Below are positions 13,532-21,317 of a DNA stretch of 64,000 bases, piece after piece (the stretch's first letter is position 1; each line of letters starts with the position of its first letter). Origin of the DNA: Chloroflexota bacterium (lineage in GTDB: Bacteria; Chloroflexota; Anaerolineae; B4-G1; DUEL01); contig JADBJJ010000012.1 in NCBI GenBank assembly GCA_014874475.1, positions 1 to 64,000 of the forward strand. Reading direction: 5' to 3'. The translations under genes and the position numbers were made by a program. Below the pieces are notes generated by a model. That model had not been told where the DNA came from and made no database searches. It saw only the letters and a program-made list of their open reading frames with translations.

Positions 13532-15286
13532 ATGGCTCGCGAACAGCGAATCGGCTCCATACTGGCTCTGGATTGCGGCACTGTCCTGACCAAAGCCATC
13601 CTGCTGGATCAAGTGGAAGGCTCCTTCCATTTTGTCGCCCGGGGTGCCGCCCTGACGACAACGGGCTCTCCGTGGCGGGATGTCGCCCTGGGAATCCAGC
13701 ACGCCATAGAGCAGGTGGAAGACATCACCGGGAGGGTGCTGCTGGATGACGCCCGCCGCCTGATTATCCTCCAGCGGGAGGGAACTGTGGGGGTGGATGC
13801 CTGCGTGGCCGTCAGCAGCGCTGCTACCCCGTTGCGGGTGGTACTGGCTGGATTGGTGCCTGAACTGAGCCTCTCCGTTGCCCAGCGCGCCGTATCCGGC
13901 ACTTACGCGCTGGTGGAGGACCTGATCGTCCAGGACCCCCGGCGCAAGATGAGCGAGGAGGAGCAGATTCGCGTTGTGTTGCAGCGCCGGCCCGATGTGC
14001 TCTGTGTAGTGGGCGGCACCGACGGCGGAGCCGTACTGCCAGTCCTGGAACTGGTGGAGACACTGGCGCTGGCCTGCTCTATGCTGCCGGAGGGGGAACG
14101 CCCGCAGATGCTCTTTGCGGGCAACACCGCGCTTCGCCAGAAGGTGGTGGACCTGGTGGGCGGACAGGCCTCCGTCCGTTCGGTGGATAACGTCCTCCCC
14201 TCCCCGACCCTGGAAAATCCGATCGGCCTGCAGAGCGAACTGGAGAATCTCTATCGCCAGAAGCAACTGGCCCAACTGCCAGGCGGGGAAATTCTCCAAC
14301 GCTGGTTGAACGTCCCCCTGATGCCCGTCAGTGAGTCCTTTGCCCGGTATATCCAGTATATCTGGTACCTGGACGAATCCCCCAAGGGGACGCTAGGAAT
14401 AGAAGTGGGGGCGGCCCATACTCTGGTAACGGCTGTCTTCGGCGGGGAGCCAGCGATAACGGTGCGGGCCGGGCTGGGCTCCATATACGGAGTGGAGCGC
14501 CTGGTAGAGCAACAAGGGGCAGAGACGTTTCTGCGCTGGATGCCCGTCCCCTTCAAACCCGAACAACTGCGATCCGTTTTGCACTACCGTTCCCTCTGGC
14601 CGGCCAGCGTCCCTCAAGAGGCGGAGGAAGTCTGGCTGGAGCAGAGCATCGTGCGGGAAGTTCTCCGGGAAGCCCTTCGGTCCGCCCGCCCGGCCTGGCG
14701 CCCCGGAAAAGCCCTACCGTACCCCCGGTTATCCCCCCTCTTTGATCCCATTCTGGTCGGCGGAGGCGCGCTGGCCTCAGTCCCCCGCCCCGGCCAACTG
14801 GCCCTGATGGTCCTGGACGCGGTGGAACCGATCGGAATTTCCACCCTCCTACTGGATGCTCACGGCATAGCGCCAGTGCTGGGAGCAGTGGCTATACTGA
14901 AGCCGATAGCGGCGGTGGAAGTAGTGGATAACGGCGGTCTGGTCAACCTGGCGACCGTCATTGCCCCGGTGGGCACGGCCCGGAAGGGGGATATCATTCT
15001 GCGGATCCGGGTTCATTACGAAAAAGGCGGCACTCTGGACGCGGAGGTTCCGTACGGCTCCTTGGAGGTCCTCCCCCTTTCGCCTGGAGAGGAGGCCGTG
15101 CTGGAACTTCGGCCGCGCGGCCGGATAGACGTGGGGTTGGGACCGGGGCGCGGCGGCAAACGGCGGGTCTGTGGCGGTCTGGTGGGACTGATCGTGGACG
15201 CTCGCGGCCGTCCGCTCCAACTGCCCGCCGACCCGTACGCCCGAATGGCCCAGGTCCAGCAGTGGCTCTGGGACGTGGGAGGATGA
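13532..15286 (+). CDS. MutL/GlmL-like ATPase, no mutase nearby
   Basis: The N-terminus ILALDCGTVLTKAILLD is the phosphate-1 loop of an actin/Hsp70-fold ATPase. The overall pattern (VVGGTDGGAVLPVLELVE, QMLFAGNTALRQ, IEVGAAHTLVTAVF, ILVGGGALASVPRPGQ) matches the glutamate mutase accessory protein MutL/GlmL. In known systems that protein sits beside the mutase subunits GlmS/GlmE and serves the B12 enzyme. Here no B12-binding or mutase gene is present in the window. At 584 residues it is longer than clostridial MutL (around 460); the extra part is at the C-terminus (about 480-584). It overlaps the next gene by the ATGA arrangement. No ribosome site is visible before the ATG. Confidence 0.8.
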   Translation: MAREQRIGSILALDCGTVLTKAILLDQVEGSFHFVARGAALTTTGSPWRDVALGIQHAIEQVEDITGRVLLDDARRLIILQREGTVGVDACVAVSSAATPLRVVLAGLVPELSLSVAQRAVSGTYALVEDLIVQDPRRKMSEEEQIRVVLQRRPDVLCVVGGTDGGAVLPVLELVETLALACSMLPEGERPQMLFAGNTALRQKVVDLVGGQASVRSVDNVLPSPTLENPIGLQSELENLYRQKQLAQLPGGEILQRWLNVPLMPVSESFARYIQYIWYLDESPKGTLGIEVGAAHTLVTAVFGGEPAITVRAGLGSIYGVERLVEQQGAETFLRWMPVPFKPEQLRSVLHYRSLWPASVPQEAEEVWLEQSIVREVLREALRSARPAWRPGKALPYPRLSPLFDPILVGGGALASVPRPGQLALMVLDAVEPIGISTLLLDAHGIAPVLGAVAILKPIAAVEVVDNGGLVNLATVIAPVGTARKGDIILRIRVHYEKGGTLDAEVPYGSLEVLPLSPGEEAVLELRPRGRIDVGLGPGRGGKRRVCGGLVGLIVDARGRPLQLPADPYARMAQVQQWLWDVGG

Positions 15287-15291
15287 GGAAT

Positions 15292-16359
15292 ATGCGCTTC
15301 TATCTTCCTCAGACAGTCATCTCGCCCCTGACCATTATCCGGAAGGAACGGCTACTTCCCGGCGAGGGGGAGATTCTGGTGCGCGAGGGAGACCGGGTAG
15401 AACCCGTGCAGGTCATTGGACAAGCCGCCGTGCCCGGGGAGTTCCGGATCGTCAACCTGGCCCAAATACTGGGCGTGCCTCGTCGGGCCGTCCGCCGCTA
15501 CCTCAAGGTGAAGCCCGGACAGGAGGTCCGGCAGGGGGATGTCCTCGCTGCCCGGGGGGGGCTAACCCAGCGGGTTTGTCGGGCGCCCATCACCGGGACA
15601 GTGACGGGCATCGGCGGCGGACGACTCATCCTTGAGGCCCCTCCGCAGATTGTAGAGGTCCGTGCGGGCTATCCCGGCGTCGTGAGACGAGTCATCCGGG
15701 GGAAAAGTGTGACGATTCAGGTAGCCGGCGCCCTCATCCAGTGCGCCTGGGGCAATCAGCAGGAAGGGTTCGGAGTCCTGCGCGTCCTGACGGATTCCCG
15801 GGAGAAGCCCCTACGGGTGCGGATGATAGATGCTTCATGCCGAGGGACGATTCTGATCGGCGGCACCCTGGCAGATGGGGACGCCCTGGATCAAGCCATA
15901 GAGATGCAAGTGCGGGGGATTGTCGTAGGGGGACTGGCGCCAGAGTTGCTGGAGAAAGCGCACCAGGCTCCCTTTCCTGTGTTGGCCACTGAGGGGCCGG
16001 GGAATGTCCCCATGTCCCCCCGATGTTTCCAGTTGCTGTCCACCTACAACGGACGAGAAGCGGTGTTAGATGGACGTTGTGCTGGCGGGCGCTCTGTCCT
16101 TCGCCCCGAAATTATCGTGCCTCTCCCTGCGGAGCCGGGGACTGGCCCCCTGGAACTGCCCGACATAGCGCTCAGTGTGGGGGACATGGTCCGGGTTATC
16201 CGGGCTCCGTACGCGGGTCAAACCGGCACCGTGGTCGCTTTTATCAACGCAGGACGTCCGACCACGGGAAACCACCTGCCGGTCGCTAAAATTGCGGTAT
16301 TAGGGGAAGAGTCCCCTTTGATCGTGCCGGTCTTCAACCTGGAAGTCATCCGATCCTGA
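15292..16359 (+). CDS. Unrecognised barrel/KOW-like partner of MutL-like protein
   Basis: I do not recognise the family. Residues 10-140 contain repeated GEGEILVREGDRVEPVQVIG and VKPGQEVRQGDVLAARGG stretches followed by APITGTVTGIGGGRLILEAP. This is a pattern like barrel-sandwich (biotinyl/lipoyl or RnfC-type) domains, but with no lipoyl Lys motif. The middle (about 180-275) looks like an alpha/beta unit (GTILIGGTLADGDALDQAIE, RGIVVGGLAPELLEKA). The C-terminus has a KOW-like SH3 segment, GDMVRVIRAPYAGQTGTVVA. The start at 15292 has GGAGG nine bases upstream; ATG 15283 overlaps the previous stop. Tight coupling suggests the protein works with the MutL-like ATPase, as a scaffold or substrate adaptor. 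Confidence 0.7.
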   Translation: MRFYLPQTVISPLTIIRKERLLPGEGEILVREGDRVEPVQVIGQAAVPGEFRIVNLAQILGVPRRAVRRYLKVKPGQEVRQGDVLAARGGLTQRVCRAPITGTVTGIGGGRLILEAPPQIVEVRAGYPGVVRRVIRGKSVTIQVAGALIQCAWGNQQEGFGVLRVLTDSREKPLRVRMIDASCRGTILIGGTLADGDALDQAIEMQVRGIVVGGLAPELLEKAHQAPFPVLATEGPGNVPMSPRCFQLLSTYNGREAVLDGRCAGGRSVLRPEIIVPLPAEPGTGPLELPDIALSVGDMVRVIRAPYAGQTGTVVAFINAGRPTTGNHLPVAKIAVLGEESPLIVPVFNLEVIRS

Positions 16360-16430: not shown

Positions 16431-17006
16431 ATGCTAGAAGATATAGACCTGGAACTGGAGGAACCGGTGGAGGCGGAGGCCGAAGAAGCCGGTGAGCGAC
16501 AGAACCGGACCTTCATCATCCTGGTCGCTGTGATGGGAGGCCTGCTTCTGATCGGCATCATCGCCTTCTGCGTCTGGCTGTTCACTGTTGGCCGGGGGGT
16601 CATATTCGGCGGACAGGCAGCGATTCCGCCCACCGCCACCCCTGAGGAGATGATCGTCGGGATGGCCGAGACGGCCACTGCCGAAGCAGCCCTGGCTCAG
16701 GCCTACCCCGAGCCAACGGCAACGCCGGAACCTTCCCCGACGCCGGTTCCGCCCACACCGACCCTGCCGCCCACCATTGCGGCACCGCAGGCAACGCCGA
16801 CCCCCCGGGTGACCCCCACCGCGACGGCCACGCGTGCGGTGACGGCAGGTGCAGGGACAACCTCGGGCGCGGCCACACCAACCCCCACCGCCGTCCGCCC
16901 ACCAGCCCAAACCGGTATCGGGGCCTACACCGCGCTCATCCTGGCCGCCGGGCTCATTATTCTACTGGTTATCTCCCGTCGCCTGCGGACTGCTCACGGT
17001 CGGTGA
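16431..17006 (+). CDS. Two-TM protein with Thr/Pro linker
   Basis: A very acidic N-terminus (LEDIDLELEEPVEAEAEEAG) is followed by a membrane helix (about residues 28-52) and a long outside linker rich in Thr, Pro and Ala (about 65-155). A second hydrophobic helix then precedes a basic tail (SRRLRTAHGR). The sequence just before the second helix, PPAQTGIG, resembles a sortase LPXTG-type sorting signal but lacks the leading Leu. AAAGGAGCG before the ATG sets the start. It lies between the MutL-like pair and the exported repeat protein. Function unknown; an envelope scaffold is a guess. Confidence 0.65.
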   Translation: MLEDIDLELEEPVEAEAEEAGERQNRTFIILVAVMGGLLLIGIIAFCVWLFTVGRGVIFGGQAAIPPTATPEEMIVGMAETATAEAALAQAYPEPTATPEPSPTPVPPTPTLPPTIAAPQATPTPRVTPTATATRAVTAGAGTTSGAATPTPTAVRPPAQTGIGAYTALILAAGLIILLVISRRLRTAHGR

Positions 17007-17017
17007 AGTTGCTACAG

Positions 17018-17118
17018 GAACCACGGATGGCGCAGATTGCGCCGATTTTAAGGAAAAAATCCGCATCATCCATATAATCTGTGTAATCCGTGGTAATCCG
17101 TGGTTTCATCCGTGGTCC
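17018..17118 (+). repeat. ATCCGTGG word repeat with inverted copy
   Basis: The gap between genes holds ACCACGGAT (17020-17028) and then, in the opposite orientation, several ATCCGTGG words (TGTAATCCGTGGTAATCCGT and ATCCGTGGTCC up to 17117). The outer parts can pair. The same word family occurs at 43084-43190 and, more degenerate, at 25863-25896. There are no spacers of uniform size, so this is not a CRISPR array. Confidence 0.6.
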
Positions 17119-17141
17119 TTCTTGTAGCAGAAAGGAGGCGC

Positions 17142-20100
17142 ATGCTCTCCTTCCGCCTCTGCTGGATAAGCGTCCTGCTTGGGCTCTTGGGGGCGCTGGT
17201 GGGAGTCGCCCTCTCCCGCTCCTCAACCGACGCTTCCCCCCTCCCTTCTCCCTCTGCTATGGAAATCACTGGCGGAGGAGAGCCCTCCTCTCCCGACCCC
17301 CACTGGCTGGAAGTGATTCGCACCCGTGACGCCTCCGGAGTCCGCCTCCAGGTCACTTTCCCCTCCCTCCACGTCCATCTCACAGACTGGATTGTCGCCG
17401 GGCGGATCCCCTCCCCGGCCCCCGTCTTCGTCCGGGTGAGCCGGGGGGAGGCGACCCTCCGCAGCGCAACCGTCCAGCCCGTTCCCGAGGGCGATGGCTA
17501 TCTGTACATCGCCGCATTTTCCTTGGCAGGATATGGATACTGCGTTGACCCCTTCCTTCCCGGTGATGTCGTCTGGGTCGTTCAGGGCAGCACCGTCCTT
17601 AGCCTCACCGTCCCGCCGCTCTCCGCGCAGGCCGACCCCGATGCGGAGGTCATCTCTGGCACCGCTCCGCCCTCGGACACCCTGGCCCTTTACCTCTACC
17701 CCCGCGCCGCCCCTGAGCAGGTCCTGACCCAGACCGTTGTTGCCGCTCCGGAGGGGACCTATCAGGTCGGGTGGGCCGACCTACGCCCCGGCGATACCGG
17801 CTTCGTCGTCTGGAACGAGGCCCCCCATCGGGCCGCCTACCTGCGCTTCGTTGCGCCGCTCCTTCAGGTCCAGGTGAATGGTCCGGAAGTGATGGGGATG
17901 GCTTCTCCGTGCTCCGCAGTTACCCTGGATGTGACCGATGCGGCGGGGAGATTGCTCGAAGCCTGGGCCTGGGCCGGACAGGATGGCCACTTTCAGGACT
18001 GGCTCTGGTGGTCGGAGAAATGGGAGGGCCTCCCGCAGTTGCTCCCCGGCTATCAGGTCCGGGCCCACGCCGCTGGCCAAACCTTTTCCACCACCGTTCT
18101 CCCGGTGACCGCTTGGACTGACCGGGCGGGAGGCCAGGTCCTGGGGGAAGCCCCGGCAAGTACGCCGGTATGGGTGCAGGTCTTCCGCGGGCCTCTGGAA
18201 TGGTCTTATGAATCCATCCGGCAACGGGAACCTTATGCCTCGGTCCGGGTCACTGCGACGGCCCAGGGCCGCTACACTGCGACAGTTCCCCTCGCCTCCG
18301 CTGACTTCGGCGCCGCCTTCGCGCAGGGCCCCGACGGCCACGAAACCTTCGCCCGCTTCGCCGTCCCCTACCTCCGGGTCTTGCTGGGCCGGGAACGGTT
18401 CTGGTACGGCTCCCGCTTCCAGGGACAGGTGGACGGGACGAACATTCCGCTCACCGTCACTATCCAGGGGCCAGCGGGCGCACTGAAAGATGTCCGCCTT
18501 CTCCGTTCATCAGGCATCGCGTTCTTTGCGGACCTGAGCCAGGAGACTGACCCAGTCCTGGAGAGCGGGGATATCCTCACGGTGGAGACGCCGCGCGGCG
18601 TCCAGGCCGCGCTGACCCTTCCCAACCTGACCGCGCAGGTGGACGTCCTCTCCGATACCGTCTCCGGGGAGGCGCCGCTAGGGGCCCAGTTGACCCTGCG
18701 CGTCTGGGCAGAGGCCGGGATGGCTGGTCTCTTCGCTGGCGGGTTGCCGGGCGGAGCCTCCGCTATGGGCGGCGGGGACCCTTCTCCTCCCCCGCCTCTC
18801 GTCTGGGTCTCCCAGGTCGTTACCGCCGGAGCCGATGGGACCTACGTTGCCGACTTCCGGGGGCTGGCGGACCTCACCCACCGCAGTGCCGGAGAGGTCT
18901 CCCTGACCACTTCGGAGGGACACACCGTCCTGCGGCCCTTCCGGACCCATTATTGCCGGCCCGTCCTCACCTCCGTCTTTGTCGGCGGTAACTACTTGAG
19001 CGGCATCTCCGGCCAGGGCTGTCCTTCCGCTACCATCCGGTTGGTGGACCCCGCCGGACTGATCAAAGCCCAGGCCTATGCTGACTTTTCCTGGAACGAC
19101 ACCTTCTGGTTGTACTTATACCTCCACGAAGTCTGCCCCTGGCCGGGGGGATGCGATAGCCGATCCATCCCCATCTTCATTTTTCCCGGCGACCGGGTGG
19201 TGATAGAGAGCGGCGGGGCCGTCTACACTACGACGGTGCCTACCCTGACGCTGTCGGTGGACCGGGAGATGCCCGCCCTCTTCGGCCAGGCCCCAGCGGG
19301 GGAGACGTTGCGAGGGGAGATCGGTCGTGATGACGAACTCCGTCACTCCTTCACGGCGACCGTCACCTCCCAGGGTCGCTACACCATTTCCCTGACCGGC
19401 ATCTACACGCCGACGGCGGGCGACCATATCGCCGTCTGGTGGCAATCTGAGGGGACCAATTTCTACGTGTACGATGTCCTCCCCCGCCTGGAAGCCGGAC
19501 TTTTCAACAACTATCTCTACGGCATTCTGCATCCGCTGACCTCCTACACCGTCATCCCTGGTTTCGCCTCGGGTTATGCCGGGCCGGAAGGACATTTCAG
19601 CGCCGCGATGGGGAACCCCTTGCGCCCTGGTGATACGGTGACCGTCACCACCGCGCGGGAAGAAATCACCCTGACCATCCCCTGGCTGACGGCGCGGATA
19701 GACCGGGCGACAGCGACCGTCTCCGGGCAGGCGCCGCCGAATAGCCCTCTGGAGGTTTCTATCAACGCCCACCCCTTCTACCTCTCCCGCCAGGTGACGG
19801 CGACGGCAGCCGGGACTTACACCGTCTCCTTCCCGGAGGCAACGATCTCCGCGGATATGTGGGGGACCGTCCGATACACCAACCCTCAGGGGCATTGGGT
19901 CTTCCTGCAATTTGGCGCGCGGGCCTGGTTCGTCACTCTGGGGGAACCATGCGCCAGCGGCTATGCCGGCATGACCAGTGCGCCCTTCACCGCCACCCTC
20001 CAGGCCGCCGACGGGTCCACGGAGAGCCTTACCGGGACGGCCTCATCGTACAATGCTTACTTCTCCGTCTGCTTCTCCCGTCCGATCGGGGCCGGCGATC

Positions 20101-20432
20101 GGTTGGTGCTGGTCCAGGTCGGCGAGGAAGCAGAATGGGTTGTTCCTCGCCTGACCGCCAGCCACGACTGGGCGGCGCAGATACTGGAGGGAGAGGCACC
20201 GCCTGGCAGTCTGGTAGAAGTGACGTTCCCCCGGGGGTGGACTTCGGTCTCCCGCCGGACGGTGGCGGACGGGTCGGGCCGCTATCGGCTGGATACGCGC
20301 GACCTGGGCCTGCGGGTGGGGGATTCGGGGGTCGTCTCGGTGGCCGACGCCGTGGGGAACACGACCCGGCTGGCATTCCAGGTCCAGGGGTATCGGGTGT
20401 ATCTACCTCTGTGCAGAAGGGCGACTCCGTAG
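17142..20432 (+). CDS. Large exported repeat protein with VYLPL tail
   Basis: The 1096-residue protein starts with a signal sequence (FRLCWISVLLGLLGALVGVAL). The body is built of beta-rich units. Six are marked by a T(V/I)PxLTAxxD...VxGxAPP pattern, for example near LTVPPLSAQADPD, VLPVTAWTDRAG, LTLPNLTAQVD, TVPTLTLSVDRE, LTIPWLTARIDRA and VVPRLTASHDWA. Between them are GTYTVSF/GRYTATV strands like Ig- or carboxypeptidase-regulatory-type folds. It ends in GYRVYLPLCRRATP, a short tail of the kind seen on many exported Chloroflexi proteins. No catalytic motif was found, so a structural or adhesive surface role is inferred. AAAGGAGG sets the start at 17142; the open frame upstream is repeat DNA. 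Confidence 0.75.
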   Translation: MLSFRLCWISVLLGLLGALVGVALSRSSTDASPLPSPSAMEITGGGEPSSPDPHWLEVIRTRDASGVRLQVTFPSLHVHLTDWIVAGRIPSPAPVFVRVSRGEATLRSATVQPVPEGDGYLYIAAFSLAGYGYCVDPFLPGDVVWVVQGSTVLSLTVPPLSAQADPDAEVISGTAPPSDTLALYLYPRAAPEQVLTQTVVAAPEGTYQVGWADLRPGDTGFVVWNEAPHRAAYLRFVAPLLQVQVNGPEVMGMASPCSAVTLDVTDAAGRLLEAWAWAGQDGHFQDWLWWSEKWEGLPQLLPGYQVRAHAAGQTFSTTVLPVTAWTDRAGGQVLGEAPASTPVWVQVFRGPLEWSYESIRQREPYASVRVTATAQGRYTATVPLASADFGAAFAQGPDGHETFARFAVPYLRVLLGRERFWYGSRFQGQVDGTNIPLTVTIQGPAGALKDVRLLRSSGIAFFADLSQETDPVLESGDILTVETPRGVQAALTLPNLTAQVDVLSDTVSGEAPLGAQLTLRVWAEAGMAGLFAGGLPGGASAMGGGDPSPPPPLVWVSQVVTAGADGTYVADFRGLADLTHRSAGEVSLTTSEGHTVLRPFRTHYCRPVLTSVFVGGNYLSGISGQGCPSATIRLVDPAGLIKAQAYADFSWNDTFWLYLYLHEVCPWPGGCDSRSIPIFIFPGDRVVIESGGAVYTTTVPTLTLSVDREMPALFGQAPAGETLRGEIGRDDELRHSFTATVTSQGRYTISLTGIYTPTAGDHIAVWWQSEGTNFYVYDVLPRLEAGLFNNYLYGILHPLTSYTVIPGFASGYAGPEGHFSAAMGNPLRPGDTVTVTTAREEITLTIPWLTARIDRATATVSGQAPPNSPLEVSINAHPFYLSRQVTATAAGTYTVSFPEATISADMWGTVRYTNPQGHWVFLQFGARAWFVTLGEPCASGYAGMTSAPFTATLQAADGSTESLTGTASSYNAYFSVCFSRPIGAGDRLVLVQVGEEAEWVVPRLTASHDWAAQILEGEAPPGSLVEVTFPRGWTSVSRRTVADGSGRYRLDTRDLGLRVGDSGVVSVADAVGNTTRLAFQVQGYRVYLPLCRRATP

Positions 20433-20486: not shown

Positions 20487-21317
20487 ATGGCGGAACGCAT
20501 TCCCCGATTGAATCGGGACCGGCTGTCGGTACTGATCGCGCTGATCCTGTTGACCAGCGTGCTTTTCCGTTTCGTCCAGTTGCCCCAGGTCACCCGGCGG
20601 TTTCACCTGCTGGGCTCTCCCCTGGAGGTGAACCTGACGGGTCAAGGGCTTCTGGTTGTCCTGGTCGCAGGCCTGGTGACTATGGGGACCCGCTATATCC
20701 TGGCGGCCCACCCCGATGCCCCCGACCGTTTGCCGCGCCCCCTCTATTTCTCCTGGGTGCTCCCGGGCCTCCTGGGCGGAATGGTGGCCTATCTGGTGGA
20801 ACTTGCGCCCACCGAGATCGTCTGGGCCGGGGGACTTCTCCTTTCCACGATCGTCATTGGCCTGGCCGTAGAAGCCGAATTCGCCGCGCTTTCCCCCCGC
20901 CATCCTGCCGCCACCCGGGCTCGCCTGGGCCTGAACATCCTGGCCTATTTGCTGGCCCTGCTCTTCTTCTACCTGATTTACCGCACCCGGGCCCGCAGCC
21001 TGATCACCGCGACGGAAGTGACGCTGGTGGCATTTCTCATCGCGCTGGACTTGCTGGGAGTGGCGGAGACCCGCGCGGCGCGGGTGGTCCTCTATTCCGC
21101 CGTCATTGGCCTGCTGGTCGGGGAGATAACCTGGGCGTTGAACTACTGGCGGCTGGATAACTGGACAGCCAGCCTGCTTCTGCTGCTGTCCTTCTATCTG
21201 GCGACGGGTATCGCTCAGCAATATCTGCTGGATCGCCTCAAACCGGCCGTCCTGCTGGAATTCGGTCTGGTTACTGCTGCTGTCCTCACCCTGATATTAG
21301 TGTTGGGAACGAGATAG
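20487..21317 (+). CDS. Multi-pass membrane protein, unknown
   Basis: The 276-residue protein is almost entirely hydrophobic, with about seven or eight predicted helices separated by short basic loops (DRLPRPL, HPAATRARLG, RTRARSL). No transporter or enzyme motif is visible. It resembles uncharacterised membrane proteins of Chloroflexi, and I cannot name a function. It has its own strong promoter and ends 26 bp before glycogen phosphorylase, so the two are probably cotranscribed. Confidence 0.7.
   Translation: MAERIPRLNRDRLSVLIALILLTSVLFRFVQLPQVTRRFHLLGSPLEVNLTGQGLLVVLVAGLVTMGTRYILAAHPDAPDRLPRPLYFSWVLPGLLGGMVAYLVELAPTEIVWAGGLLLSTIVIGLAVEAEFAALSPRHPAATRARLGLNILAYLLALLFFYLIYRTRARSLITATEVTLVAFLIALDLLGVAETRAARVVLYSAVIGLLVGEITWALNYWRLDNWTASLLLLLSFYLATGIAQQYLLDRLKPAVLLEFGLVTAAVLTLILVLGTR

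Follow-up and report, generated by a model that had tools for sequence, protein, structure and literature searches.

What does an ATPase of the MutL/GlmL type do in a bacterium in whose genome no glutamate mutase was found? The question is raised by positions 13532-16359 of the window, meaning the whole stretch of 64,000 nucleotides (nt) analyzed from a Chloroflexota bacterium (assembly GCA_014874475.1, contig JADBJJ010000012.1, positions 1 to 64,000 of the forward strand). The locus consists of two adjacent plus-strand genes, coding for a MutL/GlmL-type ATPase and then for a partner protein, and both open reading frames (ORFs) are real. Very probably the two proteins work together as one machine. 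As a tentative reading, to which we give somewhat less than an even chance, the pair would be an ATP-driven grip-and-release module that acts on a membrane complex from its cytoplasmic side. The pair comprises the following features:

13532..15286, plus strand: MutL/GlmL-type ASKHA ATPase, 584 amino acids (aa), Pfam PF13941 E=1e-53, 183 bits
about 13559-14929, plus strand: ATPase part of the MutL protein, from the PF13941 match
14930..15283, plus strand: C-terminal extension of the ATPase, residues 467-584, with the motif G-G-x-x-G-L-I-x-D-A-R-G-R-P
15292..16359, plus strand: partner protein with barrel-sandwich (BSH), swivelling and KOW/SH3 domains, from alignments of 12 and 52 orthologues, the start context and an AF2 model
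15340..15723, plus strand: barrel-sandwich/lipoyl-like region, partner residues 27-154 (VIA-align)
15730..16125, plus strand: swivelling beta/beta/alpha-like domain, partner residues 157-288 (VIA-align)
16168..16356, plus strand: KOW/SH3-like C-terminal domain, partner residues 303-365 (Pfam KOW E=7.6e-6; Spt5 KOW fold match)

Coupling of the ATPase to its partner

The partner is present in 12 of the 13 genomes of the family (49-86% identity) and adjoins MutL in each locus examined; the MutL orthologues of the family share 53-91% identity. By profile, the partner was found in 211 of 400 Chloroflexota genomes. A scan of GTDB with one genome per species returned 80 partner loci, those outside Chloroflexota belonging to Cloacimonadota, Fermentibacterota, Wallbacteria, Planctomycetota and Acidobacteriota, with one labelled Bacteroidota. 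MutL lies immediately upstream on the same strand in 69 of these 80 loci, and the median gap to the longest partner ORF is -1 nt. The exceptions are mostly Chloroflexales, with MutL beside membrane genes and the partner before the ATP synthase operon. The tight coupling claimed in the original prediction, made from the sequence of the window, is thus borne out. In the partner tree, a branch with full support separates Chloroflexota from the others, and the spread can thus be explained without recent transfer. The pair is old and is conserved far beyond chance.

The strongest evidence that the ATPase and the partner are one unit comes from natural fusions. Extra paralogues were detected in 7 of 13 non-Chloroflexota genomes searched, nine of them longer than 750 aa. 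Eight are fusions of 916-1055 aa, from six Cloacimonadota/Fermentibacterota genomes, which carry ATPase and partner in one chain in the order ASKHA domain (E 1e-90 to 1e-125), degenerate linker, two BSH matches and swivelling domain. No KOW was found in any of the eight, nor the DARGRP motif of the C-terminal extension, that domain being absent or reduced to weak fragments. There are hints in these sequences that KOW and the DARGRP domain belong together in the split form.

The ATPase itself is a variant within the known MutL kind. Its match covers the whole PF13941 profile, and the Hsp70/actin-type ATPase domain of a reactivase is present as assigned through this family. It scored 67.7 bits against the NCBIfam GlmL cut-off of 475 and 54.7 bits against the GlmL-family cut-off of 204; the Fermentibacterota orthologue, at 221.8 bits, is also under the 475-bit GlmL cut-off. 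Pfam assigns the ATPase to MutL; among 25 members scanned, nine showed an additional weak hydantoinase match, and three weak MreB-like matches were obtained, the weak relatives in some members being of the hydantoinase/BcrAD type. The C-terminal extension is well conserved, with G548, G552, D556, R558, G559, R560, P561 and W578 present in 21 of 21 system members. In Chloroflexota the ATPase motifs show some decay (GIEVGAAHT in place of GVDIGGATT), and members from other phyla have them in canonical form. No relative was found when the MutL profile was compared by sequence with solved structures.

For the partner, the start at GTG 15262 is probably over-extended by ten codons. We consider ATG 15292 the likely start, because a Shine-Dalgarno-like GGGAGG ahead of it spans the MutL stop and because relatives that lack the upstream extension start at the equivalent codon; an alternative, ATG 15283, overlaps the MutL stop. 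The AF2 model, built from 52 orthologues, has a predicted local distance difference test (pLDDT) of 91.9 and a predicted TM-score (pTM) of 0.83. In VIA-align comparisons with known structures, the BSH part matched DUF2118 3d4r (Z 8.6, 59 residues aligned, root-mean-square deviation (rmsd) 1.5), biotin carboxyl carrier protein 2ejf (Z 8.3, 57 aligned, rmsd 1.6) and RnfC 8ahx (Z 8.2, 62 aligned, rmsd 1.9). The swivelling domain matched UPF0107 2hi6 (Z 10.9, 112 aligned, rmsd 2.5), the phosphohistidine domain of rifampin phosphotransferase (Z 10.8), the C-terminal part of pyruvate kinase (Z 10.6), aconitase X 7cnr (Z 9.9) and RraA (Z 9.7). The C-terminal domain matched the Spt5 KOW (Z 8.6, 52 aligned, rmsd 1.3) as well as NusG KOW barrels. 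The model and these matches confirm the barrel-sandwich segments, alpha/beta middle and KOW-like end described in the original prediction. Its view of the partner as unrecognised holds for the whole protein, for which no Pfam family was found, the KOW motif alone being over its cut-off (26 bits, cut-off 22.3, E=7.6e-6); the alpha/beta middle, however, is a recognisable swivelling beta/beta/alpha domain. Sequence comparison of the partner profile with solved structures returned KOW and BSH fragments only.

The KOW domain raises the alternative of a transcription or translation factor, that is, a KOW protein of the NusG/Spt5 kind into which BSH parts are inserted, with MutL as cofactor. The likeness to the Spt5 KOW, the resemblance of the swivelling domain to RraA, an RNase E inhibitor, and the best whole-model Foldseek match, Thermotoga NusG 2xhc (E=1.4e-6), are in keeping with it. 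However, that match has a TM-score of 0.17 and an rmsd of 18.7, and it reflects separate barrels and no common architecture. Furthermore, the Pfam scan revealed no NGN domain in the partner, the KOW is lost in the fusions and the conserved linkage is with membrane proteins. We regard this as the least probable of the explanations considered here. The suggested translation task has found no positive support beyond the KOW/SH3 fold.

Glutamate mutase and the question of a soluble client

In the source genome, which is approximately 98% complete, this MutL is the sole PF13941 protein and no glutamate mutase (PF06368) was found, which makes the ATPase an orphan as first described. PF06368 is over the cut-off in only 5 of the 400 Chloroflexota genomes, and the pair is conserved without the mutase across the phylum. 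On these grounds a glutamate-mutase link of the pair was rejected. In one genome (G185), a canonical GlmL is encoded next to the mutase at about 1.242-1.245 Mb, and a second MutL is encoded together with the partner, the DUF6754 membrane protein and two neighbouring gene products (c3 and c5; see below) at 0.757-0.764 Mb; a single cell thus has both the GlmL and the system function. Nor was any mutase operon found without a mutL of its own. Searches of the open-access literature for glutamate mutase L in Chloroflexi, or for the mechanism of GlmL, retrieved nothing.

The pair may still be a reactivating chaperone of a B12-dependent or other soluble enzyme, like canonical GlmL, with the membrane link being secondary. 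Membership of PF13941, a swivelling domain as in dehydratase reactivase and the presence of several proteins with B12-binding domains in the source genome all agree with this explanation. In addition, one fusion gene (L189:5947-14906) is located a few genes from both subunits of methylmalonyl-CoA mutase, though on the opposite strand; no other B12 enzyme was seen close to a copy. Against it stand the missing glutamate mutase of the source genome, the rarity of PF06368 in the phylum, the separate retention of GlmL and system MutL in G185 and the finding that no B12 enzyme recurs beside the pair. We therefore consider this explanation improbable.

The DUF6754 membrane operon and the PxWL motif

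Clustering of neighbouring genes revealed the recurrent order c8/9, c6, c5, c3, c2, MutL, partner and c4, the last being a membrane anchor; in many genomes the pair thus shares an operon with c6 and three unnamed membrane proteins. Cluster c6 is DUF6754 (PF20539, E to 6.5e-121), predicted to consist of FN3 or nothing on the outside, a transmembrane (TM) segment, a cytoplasmic Rossmann-like domain and a second TM segment. The c5 and c2 proteins are predicted to be polytopic, of approximately 200 aa with 6-7 TM segments each and no family, and c3 has the layout TM, alpha/beta, TM, with a Zn-ribbon tail in Chloroflexota. Beyond the Pfam Zn ribbon, no Pfam or NCBIfam name was obtained for c2, c3, c5 or the small c8/c9 protein. 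The genes c9-c6-c5-c3-c2-MutL-partner-anchor are contiguous in a sister genus (L134). In the source genome, c6-c5-c3-c2 are adjacent on one strand of another contig (G000:C7), and MutL, partner and c4 are in the window. Near-identical orders were seen across Chloroflexota and in one planctomycete and one acidobacterium, and related ones in Planctomycetota, Acidobacteriota and Fermentibacterota. Among the 400 Chloroflexota genomes, 87 of 90 carriers of DUF6754 have the partner and 88 of 90 have MutL (counts uncorrected for kinship), and when 19 genomes were chosen by their pair loci in Chloroflexota and other phyla, 17 had DUF6754. The envelope task proposed at the outset is thus plausible, with the link running mainly through this operon and not through the large exported protein downstream of the pair.

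The fold search with DUF6754 gave a list dominated by FN3. Its cytoplasmic domain aligned with Sir2 1ma3 (Z 11.0, 143 aligned, rmsd 3.6) and the RCK domain of MthK (Z 9.7); only generic Rossmann folds were matched, and hence no function was read from the fold. The DUF6754 and c3 profiles had no relatives among solved structures by sequence, and nothing on DUF6754 was found in open-access papers. Several Cloacimonadota/Fermentibacterota genomes have 2-3 DUF6754 genes and one full partner each, in addition to fused or partial paralogues. Second DUF6754 proteins in Cloacimonadota (L152, L153, L154, L144) exceed 950 aa, and their long N-terminal part is probably extracellular; wherever the contig extends far enough, each has a c5 and a c3 of its own behind it. 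At a Fermentibacterota locus (L156, 4821-5999 and 9559-12333), a solo DUF6754 gene near a MutL-partner fusion gene suggests a reduced second version of the system.

All 32 Chloroflexota c3 proteins longer than 500 aa contain 5-21 copies of P-x-W-[LMIV], whereas no ORF among 617 others longer than 250 aa reaches four copies. The usual form is phi-P-[DES]-W-[LM]-x-x-L and is located in the predicted cytoplasmic tail. By a stricter pattern, c3 of the source genome has 11 copies, as compared to 0.31 in shuffles. In 5 of 8 loci without the membrane set (L169, L170, L171, L172, L177), the gene before MutL has 3-10 copies of the stricter motif and codes for a low-complexity Zn-ribbon protein with a short basic hydrophobic C-terminus; the pair-only loci L173, L174 and L179 have no such gene. 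The c3 profile contains the repeats itself, and the likeness seen between this Zn-ribbon scaffold and c3 lies in the ribbon and the motif. The motif is the best candidate for a docking site of the pair, in Chloroflexota only. One c3, of 1,480 aa with 48 PxW[LMIV] copies, is from a member of Chloroflexales (G127, L175:8397-12836), in which a crude hydropathy scan also gave four TM-like segments in MutL; both proteins of this genome may be unusual.

On this basis the grip-and-release reading can be extended, about as tentatively, to a widely conserved ATPase membrane machine of a new category. MutL and partner would serve as its cytoplasmic, exchangeable motor, which multivalent PxWL tails would bring to a DUF6754 transmembrane complex with outward-facing domains. 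The machine would be present in six phyla or more, and in Ktedonobacteria-like lineages it would have been rewired independently to a soluble Zn-ribbon scaffold. The ASKHA-fold ATPase would work with a partner that bears its swivelling domain on a barrel-sandwich arm, plus KOW/SH3, at the cytoplasmic face of the complex of DUF6754, c5, c2 and c3. The phi-P-x-W-L repeats would collect copies of the module on the c3 tail or, where the membrane set is lacking, on the Zn-ribbon scaffold with its basic hydrophobic C-terminus. ATP binding and hydrolysis would reposition the swivelling domain, which may grip and release a client protein much as diol/glycerol dehydratase reactivase does with a beta subunit. 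The computational support consists of coupling, fusions, co-occurrence, shared operons, partner domain folds and motif enrichment; from these we infer the binding of the motif by the module and a client role of DUF6754 or a neighbour, as well as the domain orientation and the ATP cycle.

Several observations weigh against this machine. A profile made for the purpose gave no DUF6754 match in 39 of 42 genomes, most of them pair-only; the pair can thus occur in the absence of the membrane set, and DUF6754 cannot be the sole client. The sampling of genomes is uncorrected for relatedness, and c3 proteins outside Chloroflexota lack the PxWL tail. The likeness to reactivase is by domain type and not by sequence, with no reactivase family matched; among the 50 structural matches listed there was no reactivase chain, which excludes nothing. 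Finally, the decayed motifs in Chloroflexota make weak or no hydrolysis possible there and leave room for a structural, PilM/FtsA-like role.

Such a role is the core of a further explanation, in which MutL is a largely structural ASKHA platform of a cytoskeletal or pilus-like scaffold, comparable to PilM, GspL and FtsA; by holding on to short tails in the cytoplasm, namely those of the acidic anchor and the PxWL repeats, it would organise an envelope assembly. The anchor is relevant here, and it is listed together with the gene upstream of the pair:

16431..17006, plus strand: anchor c4, third gene of the Chloroflexota cassette, with an acidic 27-residue N-terminal tail, TM segment, Thr/Pro-rich segment and second TM segment
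12351..13502, plus strand: M42 aminopeptidase gene, PF05343 E=5e-99

The anchor follows the partner in 43 Chloroflexota loci, with a median net charge of the tail of -7. A short acidic cytoplasmic tail ahead of a TM segment, a repeated motif on the c3 tail, a decayed phosphate motif, polytopic partners and a Thr/Pro-rich outer part all speak for a scaffold. However, Pfam places the ATPase with MutL, its secondary matches being the weak hydantoinase and MreB-like ones with no PilM/FtsA; no pilin, secretion ATPase or secretin was found among the conserved neighbours, and the ATPase motifs are canonical in other phyla. A scaffold is therefore unlikely, albeit the most serious competitor of the grip-and-release module. 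The end of the anchor (window 16900-17006) has PAQTG, a hydrophobic stretch and an Arg-rich tail, and resembles a sortase LAxTG/LPxTG sorting signal.

The two polytopic proteins also invite comparison with an ion- or electron-translocating complex of Rnf/Nqr-like logic, with the BSH protein peripheral and the 6-7 TM proteins of about 200 aa as the pump. The BSH part does match RnfC/NqrA, but RnfC_N reached 23.6 bits against a cut-off of 25.6 and NQRA_N 16 against 25. Pfam and NCBIfam scans gave no redox-cofactor domain in the pair, and no flavin, NADH or Fe-S family in the subunits scanned. In Chloroflexales and Ktedonobacteria, the gene of the KOW-bearing partner, or the pair, adjoins the operon for the F-type ATP synthase, and in a genome from Wallbacteria DUF6754 has a V-type ATPase operon as its neighbour; these arrangements (L176 0-9.4 kb; L063, L068, L069, L072, L074, L079; L170; L177; L164) may be chance or a bioenergetic hint. 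As this explanation also leaves the ATPase unaccounted for, we find it very unlikely.

Of the other genes near the pair, the M42 aminopeptidase gene is probably co-transcribed with it in the source genome. This gene (cluster 31) is upstream of MutL in four loci, all from close relatives, with linkage within the genus only, and was set aside. The acidic membrane anchor noted originally is a conserved element; the exported protein noted with it (17100-20432, 1,110 aa, with Ig-like repeats of the Big_6 and CopC-like types) adjoins the pair only in close relatives and was likewise set aside. Downstream, a DUF5656 membrane protein (20487-21317, E=4.9e-55) is outside the conserved cassette. Anti-phage defence was rejected, as no PADLOC match was obtained for the seven proteins scanned.

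Comparison with known systems

The system joins PF13941, DUF6754 and several unnamed families in one testable unit, of which the fusion fixes the two-protein core. If the membrane reading is true, many annotations as 'glutamate mutase L' or GlmL in bacteria without the mutase need reassignment to a membrane-associated system, and the pairing of an Hsp70/actin-type ATPase with a swivelling domain would have a second context besides B12-enzyme reactivation. Relatives of Longilinea and Chloroflexus are among the members, making genetics or proteomics feasible.

As a whole, the system is unlike anything found in a literature search limited to open access. With GlmL/MutL (PF13941, NF040745) it shares the ASKHA family over residues 10-466, and the canonical motifs are retained in members outside Chloroflexota. 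It differs in the length of the ATPase (584-637 aa, as compared to about 460 for GlmL), in the conserved extra C-terminal domain and in the pairing with a BSH-swivel-KOW protein instead of a mutase. PF20539, to which the first membrane gene belongs, is only a named unknown, and its link to MutL and the partner is a new element. The partner shares its C-terminal KOW/SH3 barrel with NusG/Spt5 but lacks NGN, and its KOW is dispensable in the fusions. The fold of its N-terminal barrel-sandwich part is that of RnfC/NqrA, whereas the pair has no redox cofactor domain and has a MutL ATPase instead. For PilM/GspL/FtsA there is no Pfam match, a distant fold relation being expected for all ASKHA proteins.

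A parallel in domain type is the diol/glycerol dehydratase reactivase (DdrAB/GdrAB). The alpha subunit of glycerol dehydratase reactivase consists of an Hsp70-like ATPase, a linker, an insert and a swiveling domain, and the latter holds an exchangeable beta subunit that is released on ATP hydrolysis (PMC7674605). Our ATP-driven grip-and-release reading is based on the same pairing of ATPase and swivelling domain, which in the fusions is present in one chain. Unlike the reactivases, the pair has no match to a reactivase family (Pfam, E<=1) and has the added BSH, KOW and membrane context.

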